A DNA stretch of 64,000 nt from Salinirussus salinus (GTDB lineage: Archaea; Halobacteriota; Halobacteria; Halobacteriales; Haloarculaceae), in contig NZ_WOWO01000002.1 in NCBI RefSeq assembly GCF_009831455.1, positions 806,001 through 870,000 of the forward strand. Direction: 5' to 3'. Below the pieces are notes generated by a model that was not told the DNA's origin, made no database searches, and saw nothing but the letters and a program-made list of their open reading frames with translations. How positions within the stretch are numbered: position 1 is the first letter of the stretch; every line of letters begins with the position of its first letter. The translations under genes were made by a program, and so were the position numbers. Positions 10,795-58,599 of the stretch are shown here, in pieces.

Positions 10795-10968
10795 TCACTT
10801 GCCGCTGAAGCGGGAGCTGAACAGCCCCGACAGGAACGCCGAGACCGCGACCGCCAGCGCGACGTCGGTCAGGTCGTACTCCTCGCCGTCCTCCGCGAGG
10901 TAGACGGTGATCCCCACGCTGATCGCGACCGAGACGATGCCGTTCAGGAGGTCCTTTCCCAGTCCCAT
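10795..10968 (-). CDS. Small membrane protein, unknown function
   Basis: A 57-residue protein starting MGLGKDLLNG. It has one clear hydrophobic helix (IVSVAISVGITVYL, residues 11-24), an acidic turn (EDGEEYD), and a second hydrophobic helix (VALAVAVSAFLSGLF), so it probably spans the membrane twice as a hairpin. A much longer upstream reading exists but has shadow-like composition and is rejected. It lies 30 bases before dinB on the same strand and could be co-transcribed. No family was recognised. Confidence 0.7.
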   Translation of the reverse strand: MGLGKDLLNGIVSVAISVGITVYLAEDGEEYDLTDVALAVAVSAFLSGLFSSRFSGK

Positions 10969-11305
10969 AGGTGTGTCTGGGGCCGCGACGCGAATGTGCT
11001 TTTCGGCGCGGCCGGGGCTCGCGGAGCGGCGGCCGAAAACCGCGGGGTGGTGTTGCCGGCCGGCAATCACCTGGTCCGTTGCCTGGAAAGCGGTGCCAAT
11101 CACCGGAACTGTCGGCGGTGGTTCCCGCCGAGAGCCCCACGCCCCAGGGCTCCATGTGTATGTTTGCCACACCCACACTTAATCCTGTCGGCGAGCGGGT
11201 CCGGGAGACCGCCGGAGCAGGTGTCGCGGCGGCGACGGCACGGGCCCCGCTTTACCGGGCGCCACGGGAGGTTTTTTACCGGCGGCAGCGATCTCCGGGT
11301 AAGCA
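10969..11305. other. 337-base intergenic region between divergent genes
   Basis: No convincing gene was found. On the minus strand there is a TATA-like GATTAAGTG near 11176-11184, followed by a stem GAGCCC/GGGCTC, and two imperfect direct repeats reading GGTGATTG about 35 bases apart. On the plus strand the run GTTTTTTACC near 11271-11280 sits about 30 bases before the J-domain gene and is probably its TATA box. A small RNA from the minus strand is possible but not supported by recognised motifs. Confidence 0.4.
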
Positions 11306-44685: not shown

Positions 44686-44710
44686 GCATGCGCGGTCCGG
44701 GATCCGAACC
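44686..44710 (-). repeat. Downstream copy of the tRNA-Gly 3' end
   Basis: On the minus strand this stretch repeats the T-arm and acceptor end of tRNA-Gly(TCC), including CCCGGACCGCGCATGC, with one mismatch in 25 bases. It lies 126 bases downstream of the genuine 3' end (44812-44836). It includes the four bases beyond the tRNA. Confidence 0.8.
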
Positions 44711-44736
44711 GAGCGGAGACGGTCCGCCTGCGGCGC

Positions 44737-44780
44737 GATGCGCCGGTCCGGGCTGCGACTCCCCGGGCTCGAACCCGGGG
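44737..44780 (-). repeat. Degenerate tRNA-Gly-like T arm between the two 3'-end copies
   Basis: GATGCGCCGGTCCGGG (44737-44752) resembles the tRNA-Gly acceptor end with one inserted base. CCCCGGGCTCGAACCCGGGG (44761-44780) is a perfect stem-loop shaped like a T arm. Together they look like an older, rearranged third copy. The rest of the 44586-44814 gap holds no gene. Confidence 0.5.
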
Positions 44781-44814
44781 CGATGCCACTCCTCGCTGTC
44801 GCTCGAAGAGAGCA

Positions 44815-44887
44815 TGCGCGGTCCGGGATTCGAACCCGGGCAAGTGGCTTGGAAGGCCACTGTCCTGACCAGCTGGACCAACCGCGC
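44815..44887 (-). tRNA. tRNA-Gly (anticodon TCC)
   Basis: The 73-base minus-strand tRNA has acceptor GCGCGGT/ACCGCGC and discriminator A. The anticodon stem AGTGGC/GCCACT holds loop CTTCCAA (anticodon TCC), and the T arm reads CCGGGTTCGAATCCCGG. No CCA is encoded. Its 3' end is repeated downstream at 44686-44710. Confidence 0.96.
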
Positions 44888-52282: not shown

Positions 52283-53038
52283 ATGACGACCATCGTCGTG
52301 CTTGCGGACCCGCCGGCGCCCGGCGTCGCGTCGCCCGGGCTCGCCGCAGGGACCCCACTCTCGGAAGCGGAGGCGGCACGGCTCTACGAGGCGATGCTGG
52401 TCGACGTCTGCCGGACGGTCCAGGCCGGCGGCGCGGACCTGCTCGTCAACTATCCGCCGGCCGACCGGGCGCCGGTCGACGAGCCCGAGCGGGCGTTGCG
52501 GGATGCGCTGGCCGACGAGCTCGAGGAGCCCGCCGAGGCCCGATACGAGGTCCAGGTCGGCGAGACCTTCGCCGGGCGGGTCGGCAACACGGTCACTCAC
52601 CTGCTGGAGGAGGAGGGTGAGCGGCAGGTCGCCGTGACGACCCCCGCCGCGCCCTTCCTCCGGCGGGACCACGTCGGCGGGCTGGGGATGTCGCTGCGGA
52701 CCGAGGAGGTCGCGCTCGCACCCGCGTGGGGCGGCCGCGTCGCGCTGGCGGGCTTTACCGAGCCGATCGACTTCACGGACGCCTTCGCCGCGCCGGCGGT
52801 GGAGACGCTGGCAATGCGGGCACGCGACGCCGGACTGTCGGTCGACTTCCTGCCGCGACAGCCGGTGGTGGAGACGTCCGCGGACCTCGCGGACGCGGTG
52901 GCGTACGCGACTGCCCGCGTGCGAGCCGAGCGACTGGTTCCCGGGCGGACGGTCGGAGTTATCGAGGACCTGGGGCTGCGTGCGGTCGAGGCCGGGGGGG
53001 AGACGCTGACGGTGAGTCGCGAGTCCGACAACTCTTAG
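52283..53038 (+). CDS. Conserved haloarchaeal protein, possibly GT-A/DUF2064-like
   Basis: The 251-residue protein starts MTTIVVLADPPAPGVASPGL, followed by LSEAEAARLYEAMLVDVCRT. This beginning is reminiscent of DUF2064 and CofC-like nucleotidyltransferase folds, but the later metal-binding aspartates of that fold are not clear. A central segment (LALAPAWGGRVALAGFTEPI-like, around residues 150-170) and VGVIEDLGLRAVEAGG at the end seem conserved. It is the last protein gene before tRNA-Ser(TGA). Function is not established. Confidence 0.75.
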   Translation: MTTIVVLADPPAPGVASPGLAAGTPLSEAEAARLYEAMLVDVCRTVQAGGADLLVNYPPADRAPVDEPERALRDALADELEEPAEARYEVQVGETFAGRVGNTVTHLLEEEGERQVAVTTPAAPFLRRDHVGGLGMSLRTEEVALAPAWGGRVALAGFTEPIDFTDAFAAPAVETLAMRARDAGLSVDFLPRQPVVETSADLADAVAYATARVRAERLVPGRTVGVIEDLGLRAVEAGGETLTVSRESDNS

Positions 53039-53064
53039 ACCGCGCGGACGGTAGGCCCGCGTGC

Positions 53065-53148
53065 GGTGGGGTGGCGGAGCGGCCTAACGCGCCTGCCTTG
53101 AGAGCAGGTGTCCGAGAGGACTCATGGGTTCAAATCCCATCCCCACCG
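53065..53148 (+). tRNA. tRNA-Ser (anticodon TGA)
   Basis: The 84-base class II tRNA has acceptor GGTGGGG/CCCCACC and serine discriminator G. The anticodon stem CCTGC/GCAGG holds loop CTTGAGA (anticodon TGA), the variable arm is long, and the T arm reads ATGGGTTCAAATCCCAT. It starts 26 bases after the preceding stop codon. Its 3' end is duplicated at 53293-53316. Confidence 0.96.
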
Positions 53149-53152
53149 TCAG
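53129..53152 (+). repeat. Direct repeat, copy 1 (3' end of tRNA-Ser)
   Basis: These 24 bases run from TTCAAATCCCATCCCCACC through the discriminator and four bases beyond the tRNA. They are repeated exactly at 53293-53316, 164 bases downstream. Confidence 0.85.
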
Positions 53153-53316
53153 ACTCCCTGCAGTCGTCTGACGAGCCCTGCCTCGCCTTACTCGGCAGGA
53201 CACCGTGAGTGCGCGGCGCATCAACGCGCCGCGCCGAACGTGACGTGGGATTTGAACTACGCGAGACGAACACAGCGAGTCTCGCCATCGAGTTCAAATC
53301 CCATCCCCACCGTCAG
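53153..53316 (+). repeat. tRNA-Ser-associated 164-base satellite unit
   Basis: The spacer between the two 24-base copies has a GC-rich hairpin (GCGCGGCGC/GCGCCGCGC type) and then the left arm GACGTGGGATTTGAA at 53242-53256. A stem GCGAGAC/GTCTCGC follows, and the unit closes with the right arm TTCAAATCCCA of copy 2, so it can fold into a long hairpin. The left arm is identical to that in the tRNA-Thr satellite at 57677-57691. It does not pair fully with the local T arm (GTGGG against CCCAT). Confidence 0.7.
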
Positions 53317-53630
53317 TCCGCACCGACGATGACCATCTGGCTCGCCTCCTCGAAGTACAGCTGGCGGGTCGACTCGGCGTCGACGCGGACGGCGTCACCG
53401 GGCTCCAGCGCGGTCTCCTCGCCGTCGACGGTGATCTGCCCGGAGCCGTCGAGCAGCAGATAGACCTCCTCCTGACCGTCGCCGGTGTGGTCGTGTTCCT
53501 TGCCCGTCCAGCCCTCGGCGGCATCGAGGACAGTGACCCCGAGGTTCTCGCAGTTCAGGTCCTCCCGGAGGAAGTGCATCCCGGGGGCGAACGGCTCGAC
53601 CTCCTCGTAGTTCGTCTTGTCGAATCCCAT
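53313..53630 (-). CDS. Single-domain cupin protein
   Basis: The 105-residue protein forms one cupin barrel. Metal-type residues are His46, His48 and Glu54 in KEHDHTGDGQEEVY, with a second motif LEPGDAVRVDAESTRQLYF that lacks the usual His. It may bind a small molecule or metal; no enzyme class can be named. The start MGFDKTNYEEVE is preferred over an Arg-rich extension. Its stop codon lies inside the downstream copy of the tRNA-Ser 3' end, so its last bases come from that repeat. Confidence 0.88.
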   Translation of the reverse strand: MGFDKTNYEEVEPFAPGMHFLREDLNCENLGVTVLDAAEGWTGKEHDHTGDGQEEVYLLLDGSGQITVDGEETALEPGDAVRVDAESTRQLYFEEASQMVIVGAD

Positions 53631-53707
53631 GGTCGGGATCCGGCGAGGGCCGGCAAAACGTTTGTCACGCGCGCCGGCGGGTCGAGACCCGCATCGCGAC
53701 CGGGCAG

Positions 53708-54466
53708 TCACTCGTGTCTGGAGGACCCGGTATCCCGGTCGGCGTCACTCCGTCCTGGCTGCTGTCCGGCCGTGCCGCCGGCCCCGCCAGCAGCCCGCTC
53801 GTGTTGTCGGACCAGCGCGACGTAGTACGCCTGCAGCGAGTCGTGGCCGTCGAGGTCGAGCTCCTCGGGGCGGGCGTCGAGGACGACCCGCCCCTCGTGC
53901 ATGACCGTCAGGCGGTCGGTGTAGGGCTCGAAGTCCCCGACGTGGTGAGTCGAGACGAGGACGGTCGCGTCGCCGGCGTAGGCGGAGAGAAAGTCGAGCA
54001 GCCGCTCCTTGGAGACGTCATCCAGCGCCGCTAGCGGCTCGTCGAGCAGTAGGTAATCCGGCCGCTTGAGCAAGGCGAGTGCGAGGTCGAGCTTGCGCGC
54101 GAATCCGCCGGAGAGGTCGTGGGCCGGCCGGTCCATCGCCCGCCGCAGCCGGAGTTCGTCGACGACGGTCTCGCGCCACTCCCGGCCGGGCGAGCCGACG
54201 AGGCTGGCGAAGACCGTCAGGTTCTCCCGGACAGTGAGGTCCGGGTAGAAGTTCGGCCGCTGGAAGCCACAGCCGACCGCGTCGGGGACCGACAGCGTGC
54301 CGGCGGTCGGCCGCGCGAGCCCGAGCAGCAGCCGGAAGACGGTGGTCTTGCCCGACCCGTTGGGGCCGACGAGACAGTGGAACTGGCCGCCCCCGACCGA
54401 CAGCGAAACGTCCCGGACGGCCACGACGTCGCCGTACTCCTTGCGGACGCCGTCGAGTTCGATCAT
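53708..54466 (-). CDS. ABC transporter ATP-binding protein
   Basis: The 252-residue ATPase has Walker A GPNGSGKT at residues 34-41, the signature segment HDLSGGFARKLDLALALL, Walker B YLLLDEPLAALDD and the switch His in VLVSTHHVGDFEPY. It is of the CcmA/NatA-like export type. It overlaps the permease gene by four bases (ATGA), so the two form one transporter. The last 25 residues are a charged Gly-rich tail. Confidence 0.94.
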   Translation of the reverse strand: MIELDGVRKEYGDVVAVRDVSLSVGGGQFHCLVGPNGSGKTTVFRLLLGLARPTAGTLSVPDAVGCGFQRPNFYPDLTVRENLTVFASLVGSPGREWRETVVDELRLRRAMDRPAHDLSGGFARKLDLALALLKRPDYLLLDEPLAALDDVSKERLLDFLSAYAGDATVLVSTHHVGDFEPYTDRLTVMHEGRVVLDARPEELDLDGHDSLQAYYVALVRQHERAAGGAGGTAGQQPGRSDADRDTGSSRHE

Positions 54467-55539
54467 GTGGTCCTCCGGTAGTACATCGCGCTGAGTTTCA
54501 CGCAGGCGAGCGTCAGGAGGGCAAAGCCCGCAAGCGCGAGCAGCCAGTCGGCAAACAGCGACAGCTCGGCGTCTTTGAGCATGAAGCTGCGGGTCATGAT
54601 GGTGGAGTAGTGGACCGGGTCCGCGCGGATGATCGCCTTCCGGACCGGCGAGAGGTAGCCCACGGGGAAGGCGAGCCCGGAGAAGGCGGTGATCCCCAGC
54701 AGGATGACGACGTTGACGAACCGGCCGAGCGTCCCGAACCGGAGCAGGACCATCACGGCCGTGCTGATCGCCGCGAGATAGAAGAAAGTCAACAGCAGTG
54801 TCAGCACGGTCCCGACGGAGAGGGCCGTCGTCGCGTAGTCGAAATACGCCGCGGCGCCCTGGAAGACGAGGATGGGGACGAGCATCAGCACGCTGAAATA
54901 GATCAGCTTCGAGAGCACCAGCGTCTCCAGCGAGGACTCCGCGCGGATCCGGTCGAGGACGTTACTCTCCTTGGCGAGGTTGTAGGGGACGTAGGTGAAC
55001 GCAAAGAGCATGATGATCGCCATCAGGAAGGAGGGGACGAGATACTCGGAGAGGGAGTTCTCCGTGCCGACGACCTCCCGGCGGACCGAGATGTCCGCCT
55101 CGAGGAAGGGCGCGTCGTTGAGCGCGCGGGCCATGATCGCGCGGATCGCCTGCGAGGGCCGCTCGAAGGGCGTGATGCTACCGTCGACAGTGAGGACGAA
55201 CGTGGCGTTGTCGTTGTCGGGGTCGGTGATGTCGGGGGGGACCTGGACGATGGCGTAGACGGACTCCCGGCGGAGCATCCGTTCGGCTTCCTCGGGCGAG
55301 TCGACCCGCTTCGGGTCGGAGAAGGGTTCGAAGGCACCGGTGATGATCGACAGTTCCTGGTCGGTGACCTCCTCGCTTTCGGGCGTGACCGCGACCGGCG
55401 CGTCCCGCGGGACGACCGTGCCGAAGACGACGCTGGTCGAGGCGAAGAAGGCGGGCAGGAGGAGCAACACGAAGGCCAGCGCGAGTGCGTTGTGCTTGCT
55501 CCAGTGGAACTCCTTTTTCAGAAGCGAGCGCAGCGACAC
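54463..55539 (-). CDS. ABC-2-type transporter permease
   Basis: The 358-residue permease has an N-terminal helix (ALALAFVLLLLPAFFASTSVVF), a soluble extracytoplasmic domain of about 130 residues, and a membrane block of about five helices (FLMAIIMLFAFTYVPYNLAK, LIYFSVLMLVPILVF, LLLTFFYLAAISTAVMVLL, NVVILLGITAFSGLAFPVG, DWLLALAGFALLTLACVKLS). This topology is that of ABC-2 exporters such as NatB or DrrB. Substrate is unknown; drug, sodium or lipid export are possibilities. It pairs with the ATPase encoded directly downstream. Confidence 0.92.
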   Translation of the reverse strand: MSLRSLLKKEFHWSKHNALALAFVLLLLPAFFASTSVVFGTVVPRDAPVAVTPESEEVTDQELSIITGAFEPFSDPKRVDSPEEAERMLRRESVYAIVQVPPDITDPDNDNATFVLTVDGSITPFERPSQAIRAIMARALNDAPFLEADISVRREVVGTENSLSEYLVPSFLMAIIMLFAFTYVPYNLAKESNVLDRIRAESSLETLVLSKLIYFSVLMLVPILVFQGAAAYFDYATTALSVGTVLTLLLTFFYLAAISTAVMVLLRFGTLGRFVNVVILLGITAFSGLAFPVGYLSPVRKAIIRADPVHYSTIMTRSFMLKDAELSLFADWLLALAGFALLTLACVKLSAMYYRRTT

Positions 55540-55702
55540 GGTTACCGACCCACCCCGGTGGCGTCGTTACCCTCGGTTCCAGCCCCGTCGACCCCGGTGC
55601 CCGCGGCCATCACATCGCAGTCAGCGGTCAGCAGTTGGATATAGCTTGTGGACCGGGCGCGCGGAGAGACATCCTTTTGTGCCCGTCGCCGAACGAACGG
55701 GT

Positions 55703-56002
55703 ATGGACTGGCCGCACAACCCCGACGGCGAGGAGGGAAGCGAAGGGCGGCGCAAGTACGGCCACGCCGTCCTCGCGAAGAAGATCGACGAAGATGAGGA
55801 CTTCCCGCTGACCGCAGAGGAGTACGTCGACGCCTACGGCGACCATCCGGTCCGGATCGACTACGAGCGGGTCGTCAGCGTCGAGGATATCTTCGAACAC
55901 GTCGAGGAAGACGAGTTCTCGGACTTCCCCGAGTTCCACAAGGCCCTCGGCCGGGCGCTCCGGGAGGCCGACTACTGGCCCTACCGCCTCGAACACGCCT
56001 GA
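55703..56002 (+). CDS. DUF5785-type haloarchaeal protein
   Basis: The 99-residue acidic protein starts MDWPHNPDGEEGSEGRRKYG and contains VRIDYERVVSVEDIFEHVEE and EFHKALGRALREADYWPYRL. It fits the small, highly conserved haloarchaeal family DUF5785, which I recall as single-copy and of unknown function. It is probably cytosolic. A TATA-like GGATATAGC lies about 65 bases upstream. Confidence 0.85.
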   Translation: MDWPHNPDGEEGSEGRRKYGHAVLAKKIDEDEDFPLTAEEYVDAYGDHPVRIDYERVVSVEDIFEHVEEDEFSDFPEFHKALGRALREADYWPYRLEHA

Positions 56003-56087
56003 CGCGCCGGATATCGGCCTCCGTCGCGTGTGGGGACGAGTACGACCCCGGAACACGCGTGGGCCTCCCGTGGCCGCACTCGAGTGG

Positions 56088-56106
56088 TATGTGTTCACAC
56101 AACATA
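56088..56106 (+). promoter_or_regulatory. Candidate operator at the DUF7344 gene
   Basis: TATGT and ACATA flank GTTCACACA to form a 19-base imperfect inverted repeat about 30-45 bases before the ATG at 56135, overlapping the expected TATA position. It may be an autoregulatory site for the winged-helix protein (inference). Confidence 0.35.
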
Positions 56107-56134
56107 CTTGTGCCCCACCGGTGTAGTTCCGGGT

Positions 56135-56461
56135 ATGGCAACCGAACACCCCCAGGCGAGTGACCGGCTGCCCGAGCGGGTGGTGGCCGACCTGCTCTCC
56201 TCGGACCGACGGCGACGGCTGCTGACCTGTCTGGAGGAACACGGGGGCTGTCTGCCCGTGACAGACCTCGCGGCGGCCGTCGCGGCCCGGGAGGCTGACG
56301 TGGAGTCGGAGGCAGTCGACCCCGAACGACACCGGACGGTCCGGGAGGAGATCTACGAGCGCCACCTGCCGAAGCTGACGGCGACCGGCGTGGTCGAGTT
56401 CGACTCGATGCGTGGGACCGTCACGCTGACGGGATACGGTCTCGCGGAGGCCGGGAGATAG
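56135..56461 (+). CDS. DUF7344-type winged-helix protein
   Basis: This 108-residue protein is a second DUF7344 member: VVADLLSSDRRRRLLTCLEE, VTDLAAAVAAREAD, then IYERHLPKLTATGVVEFDSM with the helix-turn-helix and wing. It is shorter and clearly diverged from the copy at 30556-30939. The CBS-domain gene follows after 32 bases and may be co-transcribed. Probably a DNA-binding regulator, judged by fold only. Confidence 0.85.
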   Translation: MATEHPQASDRLPERVVADLLSSDRRRRLLTCLEEHGGCLPVTDLAAAVAAREADVESEAVDPERHRTVREEIYERHLPKLTATGVVEFDSMRGTVTLTGYGLAEAGR

Positions 56462-56493
56462 CTTTTTTCCGGCCGTGCGCTAAACTATCACGT

Positions 56494-57075
56494 ATGAACA
56501 GGGACGTGACGGTCAGGGAGGTCGCGAACCGGGAGTTCGTGGGCGTCAGCGAGTCGGACGACCTCTTGGGGACGGTCGAGCTGATGGTCGGGGAAGGCGC
56601 GGACACCGCGCTCGTCGTCCAGGGGGCCGAGCCCGTGGGCATCCTGACCGACCGCGCCGTCCTCGAGTTGCTCGCCGCCGAGGGCGGGGTCGACGGCGCG
56701 GTCGTCGGCGACGCGATGGAGCCGACCGTCCCGACGATCGAGTCCCAGGCCACCATCGAGGAGGCCGCCGACCGGATGTCCGCTGAGGGGACCCGCCGGA
56801 TGGTGGTCACGGACGCCGGCGAGACGGTCGGCATGCTCACCGAACACGACCTCTTCGCCACGCGGCCGCTGGCAGCGGACGGCCCCGAGGCCGGACTGGC
56901 CCACCCGGCGGGGGAGGCCGAAACCGCGCTCGCCGCCGACTCGGAGACCGGCGTCGAGAGCGGGGCCGGCGAGGGGTTCGAGGAACAGAGCATCTGCGAG
57001 GGGTGTGGGACGCTGACCGGCGACCTGGTGGCCTTCAATGGCCAGCTGCTCTGTGGCGACTGCCGGGACATATAG
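56494..57075 (+). CDS. CBS-pair protein with C-terminal zinc ribbon
   Basis: The 193-residue protein has two CBS domains (VREVANREFVGVSESDDLLG with GILTDRAVLELL, and VGDAMEPTVPTIESQATIEE with GMLTEHDLFATRP). An acidic linker of about 40 residues and a short zinc ribbon follow (CEGCGTLTGDLVAFNGQLLC, then GDC). CBS pairs usually bind adenosine nucleotides and sense energy charge; the ribbon may contact a protein or nucleic acid. The acetyltransferase gene starts at its stop codon (TAGTG), so they are coupled. Confidence 0.92.
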   Translation: MNRDVTVREVANREFVGVSESDDLLGTVELMVGEGADTALVVQGAEPVGILTDRAVLELLAAEGGVDGAVVGDAMEPTVPTIESQATIEEAADRMSAEGTRRMVVTDAGETVGMLTEHDLFATRPLAADGPEAGLAHPAGEAETALAADSETGVESGAGEGFEEQSICEGCGTLTGDLVAFNGQLLCGDCRDI

Positions 57076-57557
57076 TGGTCACCATCGAGACCCCCGACGC
57101 CGACCTCGCCGAGACTGTCACAGACCTCTGGGTCGCGCTGGCGACCGGGCAACGCGAGTACGGCTCGCACATCCTGGCCGAGGAAAACCGGGCACGCATC
57201 CGCGAGCAGATCCTCCGGCACACCGTCGACGACACCCTGCTCGTGGCCCGCGACGGCGGTGTGGTCGGGTTCGCCACCGTCGAGCGCGAGGGGGGCCCCT
57301 ACGCCCAGAGCGGCGCCAGGGGACTCGTCACGAACCTCTACGTCCGCCCGGCGTTCCGCGGGGAAGGGGTCGGGTCGGAACTGCTCGCTGCCGCCGAGGA
57401 CCGGCTCCGGGAACTGGGGGTCGACACCGTCGCGCTGGAGGTGATGGCAGACAACGAGGGAGCCCGGCGGTTCTACCGGCGTGCGGGCTACGAGCCCCAC
57501 CGGCTGACGCTGGAGAAGCCAGTCGAAAGCGATACGCACTCAAGGGGTGACGAGTAA
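57075..57557 (+). CDS. GNAT-family N-acetyltransferase
   Basis: A 160-residue acetyl-CoA-dependent transferase. Motif A with the acetyl-CoA loop is LVTNLYVRPAFRGEGVGSEL at residues 85-104, preceded by the strand VGFATVE, and motif B contains VALEVMADNEGARRFYRRAG. The pattern is close to RimI-like enzymes, which acetylate amino groups of proteins or small molecules. The GTG start overlaps the CBS gene by one base. A CBS/GNAT pairing suggests an acetylation step responsive to nucleotide levels (inference). Confidence 0.92.
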   Translation: MVTIETPDADLAETVTDLWVALATGQREYGSHILAEENRARIREQILRHTVDDTLLVARDGGVVGFATVEREGGPYAQSGARGLVTNLYVRPAFRGEGVGSELLAAAEDRLRELGVDTVALEVMADNEGARRFYRRAGYEPHRLTLEKPVESDTHSRGDE

Positions 57558-57568
57558 CTCCCGGACGC

Positions 57569-57642
57569 GCTAGGGGAGCTTGGGTGGTCCAAGCACCCGA
57601 CTTGTAATCGGGAGTTCGAGGGTTCAAATCCCTCCCCTAGCT
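57569..57642 (+). tRNA. tRNA-Thr (anticodon TGT)
   Basis: The 74-base tRNA has acceptor GCTAGGG/CCCTAGC and discriminator T. The anticodon stem CCCGA/TCGGG holds loop CTTGTAA (anticodon TGT), and the T arm is GAGGGTTCAAATCCCTC. It begins 11 bases after the acetyltransferase stop. Its 3' end is repeated twice downstream at 101-base spacing. Confidence 0.96.
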
Positions 57643-57743
57643 CTTCTCCGCGAGCGACAGTGAGCGAGAACGGCGGGACGTGGGATTTGAATCAGGGAGT
57701 GGAGTAACACGGAACGACCGTGGTTCAAATCCCTCCCCTAGCT
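57643..57743 (+). repeat. tRNA-Thr satellite unit 1 (101 bases)
   Basis: The unit begins CTTCTCCGCGAGCGACAG and has the left arm GACGTGGGATTTGAA at 57677-57691. The internal hairpin CACGG/CCGTG has loop AACGA. It ends with a copy of the tRNA T-arm/acceptor half (TTCAAATCCCTCCCCTAGCT, 57724-57743). The left and right arms can pair over ten bases. Confidence 0.85.
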
Positions 57744-57840
57744 CTTCTCCGCGAGCGACAGCGAGCGGGAACGGCAGGACGTGGGATTTGAATCAGGGAG
57801 TGGAGTAACACGGAACGACCGTGGTTCAAATCCCTTAGCT
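57744..57840 (+). repeat. tRNA-Thr satellite unit 2 (97 bases)
   Basis: A second tandem unit differs from unit 1 by three substitutions and a four-base deletion (CCCC) in its terminal tRNA-like end. Near identity implies recent or homogenised duplication. The remaining 84 bases to the next gene hold nothing recognisable. Confidence 0.85.
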
Positions 57841-57924
57841 CTCCTGTGACGAGCGGACGCGAGGAGCGGGAACTGCGAGGGGAGGCGCAGTCCGCGAACC
57901 GAGCGGGACGGTCTCCGAGCCGGG

Positions 57925-58599
57925 TCAGTGCCCCGCCGGCACGCTTTCGACGACCGCGTTGATCAGTTTCGCTTCGGCCTTCTGGAGGTGTTCGCTCGCC
58001 GTGTTCGGCGCACAGCCGAGCTCTGCGGCGATCTCCTCGTGGGTGGTCGCCCGGGGCTGGTTGTAGTAGCCCAAGTCGACCGCCGTCTCGAGAGCCTCCC
58101 ACTGCCTGTCGCTCAGGTCCGAGGCCGGGTTCGCGCGGGCGCTGGGGAACCGGCCGACCTCCTCGAGCGTGACGTCCATCGCGTCCGGCGCCTCGTCGAG
58201 TACCGCCTGGAGCGCTCCGGAGTCACCGACCACGTGTCCGTGGATCCGCCCGTCCCGGTAGACCAAGGGTCGCCGAACGACCAGCCCGGCCCGGGCGAGC
58301 GCCTCCTCGACGACCCCGAACATCGGCACGACGTCGTCGCGCACGTCGAGCAGCGCGTACGAGCGAGCCGCGTCGACCGCCGACAGCGCCACGGACTCGA
58401 CACCCGGCGTATCCGTCGCTGCGTCCCTGAATCCGGCGACGTCGCCGTCGACCGCGTACAGGTGTGTCGTCGTCGCCGGGTCCGCCCGGTTCCAGTCCAC
58501 CGCCCGTGCTTCCTCCACGTCCGGCGAATCGAGGAGGTACGCGACGAACCCCGGGGACCGGTCGAGGTCCGGCCGTACCGTGACACGGATGTGTTTCAT
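57925..58599 (-). CDS. Bat-type HTH_10 transcription regulator
   Basis: The 224-residue protein has an N-terminal alpha/beta sensor-like region (MKHIRVTVRPDLDRSPGFVA) and a C-terminal HTH_10 domain: LSDRQWEALETAVDLGYYNQ, then ATTHEEIAAELGCAPNTASE and HLQKAEAKLINAVVES. This layout is the haloarchaeal bacterio-opsin activator (Bat)-like family of regulators. No PAS or GAF domain is present. Target genes are unknown; the divergent quinone reductase gene across the 233-base gap is a possible target (inference). Confidence 0.92.
   Translation of the reverse strand: MKHIRVTVRPDLDRSPGFVAYLLDSPDVEEARAVDWNRADPATTTHLYAVDGDVAGFRDAATDTPGVESVALSAVDAARSYALLDVRDDVVPMFGVVEEALARAGLVVRRPLVYRDGRIHGHVVGDSGALQAVLDEAPDAMDVTLEEVGRFPSARANPASDLSDRQWEALETAVDLGYYNQPRATTHEEIAAELGCAPNTASEHLQKAEAKLINAVVESVPAGH

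Follow-up and report, generated by a model that had tools for sequence, protein, structure and literature searches.

The repeated 3' end of a tRNA gene close behind the gene itself raises the question of what lies between the two copies, and whether it belongs to the tRNA or to an element that has settled there. The 3' ends of tRNA genes are classic landing sites of mobile DNA, with the T-arm favoured. The window analysed here is a stretch of 64,000 nt from Salinirussus salinus, in which tRNA-Ser(TGA) (53064..53150, + strand; ARAGORN and Rfam RF00005) is the anchoring gene. A first-pass annotation had reported an exact 24-base copy of its 3' end at a spacing of 164; the exact match and the spacing were confirmed, while the length was corrected to 25 nt (53128-53152 = 53292-53316). 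Positions G53 to 73 of the tRNA lie at 53128-53148 and their copy at 53292..53312, with identity extending to 53316. A 98-nt spacer rich in inverted repeats (53149..53246), longer than the usual 30-80 nt, is followed by a left arm, GGGATTTGAA (53247..53256), reverse-complementary to tRNA positions 54-63, and by a 35-nt core (53257..53291) containing a perfect 7-bp stem, here called stem II (GCGAGAC/GTCTCGC; 53261-53267 and 53279-53285), all on the + strand. The hairpin modelling that the first-pass annotation had proposed gave z-scores of -6.3 for RNA and -6.6 for DNA, and none of 200 shuffled sequences folded as well, RNA and DNA alike.

The 15-mer GACGTGGGATTTGAA, said to be common to the units at tRNA-Ser and tRNA-Thr, is indeed found at 53242, 57677 and 57778. 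With up to two mismatches allowed, the window contains it 3 times, where shuffles predict 0.09, and it is not scattered away from tRNA-like right arms, a distribution that would have made the sharing coincidental; in the whole 3.37 Mb genome it occurs at those three places only. Its two occurrences at tRNA-Thr go back to one event, the tandem duplication of a 101-nt Thr unit. tRNA-Thr(TGT) (57569..57643, +; ARAGORN) anchors an array of two units. Unit 1 (57643..57743, +) has its spacer at 57643-57681, left arm at 57682-57691, core at 57692-57722 and a 21/21 tRNA copy at 57723-57743. Unit 2, the tandem duplicate (57744..57840, +), has its left arm at 57783-57792, core at 57793-57823 and a copy with a 4-nt deletion at 57824-57840. 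Besides these two sites, a third satellite was found in the window behind tRNA-Gly(TCC) (44815..44887, - strand); this unit (44689..44814, -) comprises a 105-nt spacer, left arm, core and tRNA copy, the last matching positions 53-73 in 20 of 21 bases (44689-44709).

It had been concluded from the shared 15-mer that the left arm belongs to the element and not to the tRNA. The comparison of units overturned this view: the arm is the reverse complement of the local T-loop and T-stem, and it changes with the tRNA. The Ser and Thr left arms are identical because both T-arms read TTCAAATCCC; 10 of the 15 bases of the 15-mer are the reverse complement of the T-arm common to tRNA-Ser and tRNA-Thr, and the other five (GACGT) stand before the arm in 3 of 288 distinct units. 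Other T-arms go with other left arms: GCGGTTTCG against CGAAACCGC at Val(TAC), GGGAATTGAA against GTTCAATTCCC at Gly(CCC), GAGATTTGA against TCAAATCTC at Arg(GCG) and GGGCTCGAAC against GTTCGAGCCC at a tRNA called as Val. The Cys, Met and other tRNAs of the source genome each have their own left arm. Where units have different bases in their arms, the left arm fits the arm of its own unit in 5647 comparisons, a foreign one in 787 and both equally in 1454, in statistics over all units that are biased in that L004-L092 and L254-L373 were found via the arm pattern. The mean match of the 13-nt arms, 10.3 for own and 9.5 for foreign ones, is nearly alike because most of the arm is universal. The Ser core (CTACGCGAGAC..GTCTCGCCATCGA) is unlike the Thr core (TCAGGGAGTGGAG..CGACCGTG), and there is therefore no element common to both beyond the arm. 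A near-identical core with 33 identical nt was found behind Arg(TCT) and Val(CAC) of the source genome, with different arms.

Two further proposals stood, namely that the right arm is specific to its tRNA and that a family of related hairpin elements occupies different tRNA genes. The source genome has 54 tRNA hits, 11 of them in one cluster, and 20 of the 43 outside the cluster have a downstream copy of the 3' end, with 16-21 of 21 identities against a largest value of 13-17 in 50 shuffles. The dense 11-tRNA cluster (G000:C4:595496-597722; L143, L149) lacks first-family units of its own and is perhaps derived from a virus or plasmid. Among 331 de-duplicated tRNA loci, 245 have at least one unit, a ratio that is not a frequency, since the presence of a unit was the reason for retrieving most loci. 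In total 332 units were counted, one at 171 tRNAs, two at 62, three at 11 and four at one. The order of parts in this first family is spacer hairpin, 10-nt left arm, core hairpin and copy of tRNA positions 53-73. The unit measures roughly 75-200 nt, typically about 100-120, and contains no gene; mostly 60-160 nt separate the tRNA end from the copy, which is too short for a usual gene.

The boundaries of the unit are sharp. Throughout G53 to 73 the copy has an identity of 0.89-0.97 per position (n=235 first units); outside, the value is 0.84 at the base immediately upstream, 0.29 at the next one out, 0.55 just downstream and about 0.35 beyond that. Complementarity of the left arm is 0.91-1.00 over T54 to 63 and then 0.50 and lower, in units selected for at least 8 of 10 complementary arm positions. 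The arms read TTYGAAN and GTTCRAA. Cores are variable, most commonly 27-50 nt long; they mostly begin with NYAG or NYAC and mostly end with CGTG, ATCGG or similar. The spacer, measured from the tRNA end to the left arm, is mostly 30-50 or 60-80 nt long and is often itself an inverted repeat. In spacer hairpins such as those of L025, L072, L053 and L058, the stem varies with compensation (TTTCTCGAAATC..GATTTCGAGAAA against TTTCTCGAACC..GGTTCGAGAAA), and the spacer hairpin can lengthen the stretch over which the left arm pairs with the tRNA 3' end.

The units are a feature of haloarchaea. The pattern GGGATTYGAA-N18..48-TTCRAATCCC, which catches one T-arm class only, is present in 209 of the 293 genomes sampled from the order, and its backward control gave no match in any genome listed. 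In a phylum-wide draw, 38 of the 43 genomes from the order had the arm pattern, against none of the 203 from elsewhere in the phylum. A stricter arm pattern, run on 84,980 species genomes (GTDB), returned at least 120 stretches; among the matches listed, 118 bear haloarchaeal names and two do not, a bacterial MAG (L257) and a euryarchaeal one (L313). A tRNA gene lies on the same strand within 1500 nt upstream in 103 of the 120 matches listed, and the other 17 are, by eye, mostly reverse-strand units, tRNAs missed by ARAGORN, or locus edges. A caution follows for annotation, namely that what looks like a fragment of a tRNA 3' end in a haloarchaeal genome is often such a unit and not the end of an island.

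Related species were compared at the same tRNA genes. At tRNA-Gly(TCC) of one genus, the tRNA of L194 runs straight into the flank that follows two units in L200; L200 is the same place as L031, and in the filled/empty pair L031/L194 the flank begins at the same base. Sister species of that genus have different cores at the same tRNA-Gly(TCC) spot. At tRNA-Ser(TGA), L165 is filled and L166 is empty, with the same flank from the same base. A difference of one unit between matching flanks was seen at Arg(GCG) of Halorubrum (L267/L309), where a second-family unit (see below) is present in both and the first-family unit alone differs, and at Gly (L066/L067). Sites of this kind indicate that a unit was gained or lost precisely behind the tRNA. 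Of 3767 random pairs, 29 also pass the flank-similarity score, and the evidence for filled and empty sites therefore rests on the pairs read by eye. The pair L295/L361, scored as one unit against none, was rejected in this reading, since L361 contains a unit too, one with a copy that exceeds the mismatch limit; both loci contain second-family units. Exact loss is possible by plain recombination between the 21-nt direct repeats, and an empty site alone is therefore no proof of insertion.

The direction of change was judged from arrays and from decayed copies. In 76 arrays, the proximal copy is nearer to the tRNA sequence in 40, the distal one in 5, and 31 are equal; conversion from the neighbouring tRNA may partly explain why proximal copies are better preserved. 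Where the copy departs from the tRNA (42 units), the left arm matches the tRNA in 53 cases, the copy in 6 and neither in 5, with ties between tRNA-fit and copy-fit windows credited to the tRNA window. Diverged copies thus keep a left arm matching the tRNA, from which it follows that the hairpins are made at insertion and then decay; alternatively, the arm could be kept paired to the tRNA gene. Filled and empty pairs, polarity and the 53 against 6 count, taken together, indicate that units arrive beside the tRNA with matched arms and later decay. Identical units spaced by 111 nt, five in L086 and four in G120:C1:2656897-2657281, are a sign of recent tandem amplification. Plain tandem copies of this kind (Thr, 101 nt; L086, 111-nt units), together with the high identity of the copy to the tRNA, would fit an origin without any enzyme, in which the units spread by tandem duplication, by slippage and by gene conversion among tRNA loci. 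Polar arrays of unlike cores are hard to produce in this way, as are near-equal cores behind unlike tRNAs sharing about 10 nt, and of the explanations considered here it is given the least credence.

The hairpins fold in a strand-specific manner. Of 278 distinct hairpins, 235 have their more stable fold on the tRNA-sense strand; the mean difference between strands is -4.8 kcal/mol with RNA parameters, against -1.6 in dinucleotide shuffles, and -1.9 against -0.6 kcal/mol with DNA parameters. The motif C(GNA)G, a very stable mini-hairpin loop in DNA, occurs in 182 of the 278 cores on the tRNA-sense strand and in 69 on the other. The better folding of the sense strand, together with the position of the units behind tRNA genes on the same strand and a compensating stem variation with changes on both sides in 8 of 17 predicted pairs, would also be expected if the hairpins were structured RNA, that is, tRNA trailers or small RNAs under selection, for example for 3' processing. 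The excess of G.U over A.C expected of a maintained RNA stem is absent: arm mismatches in 55 units, a subset that omits L004-L092 and L254-L373, comprise 12 G.U and 18 A.C, and in stem II there are 13 G.U and 17 A.C, most mismatches being G.G, T.T and G.A. The copies decay without compensation (53 against 6), presence at orthologous tRNAs is patchy, and in an Rfam scan of 52900-58100 nothing but tRNAs passed the gathering score, with no known RNA family over the units. A selected RNA is thus an unlikely explanation. The strand-specific folding speaks for a folded single strand as the substrate, which, with no compensation, is more probably DNA than RNA. If the folded strand is the substrate, the units would represent a second lineage of folded-DNA recombination besides integrons.

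The exact boundaries, filled and empty sites, arrays of unlike cores, preserved proximal copies, tRNA-following arms and sense-strand folding that the comparisons of sequences have shown are probably best read as the work of a putative recombinase acting in trans, which would insert gene-less cassettes site-specifically at tRNA 3' ends. A cassette would enter directly behind the mature 3' end, leaving the tRNA intact and creating a second copy of positions 53-73. The enzyme presumably requires pairing of left arm and T-arm, which would most likely take place within one folded strand forming a hairpin. The landing site would be the T-loop (G|TTC), and insertion would succeed only where the arm fits; on the proposed view, a unit therefore matches its tRNA at birth and drifts afterwards. 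Since universal T-loop sequence makes up most of the 10-nt arm, a unit would have to change only one to three bases to switch to another type of tRNA. The copy may arise in either of two ways: the unit could bring a new tRNA 3' end, as in the logic of tyrosine recombinases, with the need for a working tRNA setting the end at 73, or the 21 nt could be a target duplication. The latter option leads to Cas1- or casposase-like insertion, with the copy as the target-site duplication of a staggered cut, as in CRISPR adaptation. Casposons use a Cas1-type integrase and have terminal inverted repeats, and their duplication is 14-15 bp. The copy is sharp at both ends and insertion occurs beside a fixed, leader-like side, as this mechanism would predict; it leaves unexplained why the left arm fits each tRNA, and it is considered improbable.

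A linked recombinase, suggested by the first-pass annotation as something to look for, was not found: none of 10 proteins scanned at 51.3-60.1 kb has a recombinase domain. Among 30 loci with PF00589 integrases from 5 genomes, none has such a hairpin, and the idea that units are provirus ends was rejected. ARAGORN calls an ordinary tRNA at three of these loci (L381, L385, L390) and a doubtful one at L394. In L381 of the source genome (G000:C3:666053-669529), the integrase gene lies just downstream of tRNA-Thr(GGT), without a hairpin unit. A viral attP was likewise rejected as the source: scans of IMG/VR yielded 3 and 17 stretches, of which by eye L238 alone, beside tRNA-Glu, resembles a unit, and haloviruses therefore do not generally carry units. 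On the reverse strand of L032, an insert of about 1.26 kb lies between tRNA-Gly(TCC) and its satellite, upstream of the pre-existing satellite, and contains a tRNA copy of about 45 nt that starts near the anticodon. Units could be scars of ordinary integrases, that is, the joined left and right ends of a tRNA-integrated provirus or plasmid minus its middle. The L032 insert and the partial tRNA copies of 22 and 43 nt left by haloarchaeal proviruses, as described in passages of PMC3119063, are in keeping with this. The units, in contrast, have parts uniform in size and order, lack gene remnants and form tandem arrays; the L032 copy does not begin at G53; no hairpin occurs at the 30 integrase loci; and a tRNA lies within 1500 nt upstream in most GTDB matches listed (103 of 120, the others being mostly missed or reversed tRNAs and locus edges). 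Scars of this kind are quite unlikely to account for the units.

The known system closest in design is the mobile integron array (attI, attC, IntI). Both are polar arrays with the youngest unit at a fixed site, and new units indeed appear beside one such site in the haloarchaeal case, as inferred from copy divergence (40 arrays against 5, 31 equal). Both consist of direct repeats with G|TT at the boundary, and both have an imperfect inverted repeat whose fold has a variable loop and leaves the centre unpaired. The units, unlike integron cassettes, lack an ORF, and no recombinase is encoded among the 10 proteins at 51.3-60.1 kb, so that no intI lies beside the unit there. The arms of attC are RYYYAAC and GTTRRRY, whereas those of the units are tRNA sequence, GTTCRAA; the fixed site of the units is a tRNA gene and the better-folding strand is the tRNA-sense one. 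It is possible, though doubtful, that haloarchaea have an integron-like system with the T-loops of many tRNA genes as its platform, a recombinase of folded strands, a short guide arm that is complementary to the target T-arm and could be retargeted by one or a few base changes, and a nested, oppositely folding second family at the acceptor end. The near-identical cores at Arg(TCT) and Val(CAC) count against the reading of the units as cassettes inserted by a recombinase, since they need arm changes and none was seen in progress.

The rtT repeats that follow tyrT of Escherichia coli likewise each contain the 3' end of the tRNA; they occupy a single locus, are transcribed, measure about 178 bp and are not known to have a T-arm-matched inverted arm. 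In three IMG/VR prophage contigs, a long inverted repeat of a tRNA-Met-like 3' end lies directly beside a tyrosine integrase gene (L242, about 1095-1185; L244, about 355-412; L252, about 10958-11025). PF00589 was hit in L242 and L244, where the best NCBIfam hits are Xer-type models below their cut-offs, and an integrase N-terminal domain in L252. These contigs, whose host we take to be Bifidobacterium, resemble the units in having a tRNA 3' end and its reverse complement as a hairpin, and differ in being prophage-borne with an integrase of their own. By analogy, they are a precedent for an inverted repeat of a tRNA 3' end beside a tyrosine integrase.

Tyrosine-integrase elements in tRNA genes (SNJ2, HF1-like proviruses and pL6-related integrative plasmids) share with the units a repeat of the tRNA 3' end and an intact tRNA. 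They are kilobases long and carry an integrase gene, and their copies of 13, 22 and 43 nt have other starts, according to the passages on the 13-bp SNJ2 site (PMC8371274) and on proviruses and plasmids that duplicate 22 or 43 nt (PMC3119063, PMC11431627, PMC7230728); these passages describe no inverted arm of the T-arm kind. SNJ2-type integrases are restricted to Halobacteria, as stated in the relevant part of PMC8371274. The units do not have an integrase of their own, as judged from their length and from the 30 integrase loci without a hairpin. The PATE and SMR elements of Haloquadratum, as treated in sections of PMC3119063, are like the units short and non-coding (SMR-A about 110 bp), with palindromes or inverted ends, and are moved in trans or otherwise. 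They make no target duplication, whereas the units show one of 21 nt; PATEs carry IS605-type ends, unlike the units; and those sections give no tRNA targeting. Integrons, PATEs and integrase elements each differ from the units in at least one tested defining feature. In the literature searched, no description of such units was found, and the passages of PMC8371274, PMC3119063, PMC11431627 and PMC7230728 concern larger tRNA-inserted elements, viral attP sites or other repeats only. The units look like an unrecognised insertion system landing on tRNA genes and are filed under non-autonomous tRNA-targeted elements, a separate class being possible. As minimal units found across haloarchaea, with a datable order, empty sites and target-matched arms, they offer a natural experiment on what recombination sites in tRNA genes need.

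A second satellite family copies tRNA positions 61-73 only. It comprises 40 candidates with identity of 0.93-1.00 over these positions, about 7 of which are, by eye, first-family units with an indel; a control with reversed tails gave no matches. The second family folds better on the strand opposite to the tRNA in 30 of the 40, and its core is of the type GAYGTTCGC..hairpin..GCTCACT. Several of its units are nested in a first-family right arm. Loci with second-family units include L266, L217, L319, L326, L016, L084, L267, L309 and L295, and in the source genome two Ala genes carry this kind of unit (L123, L126).
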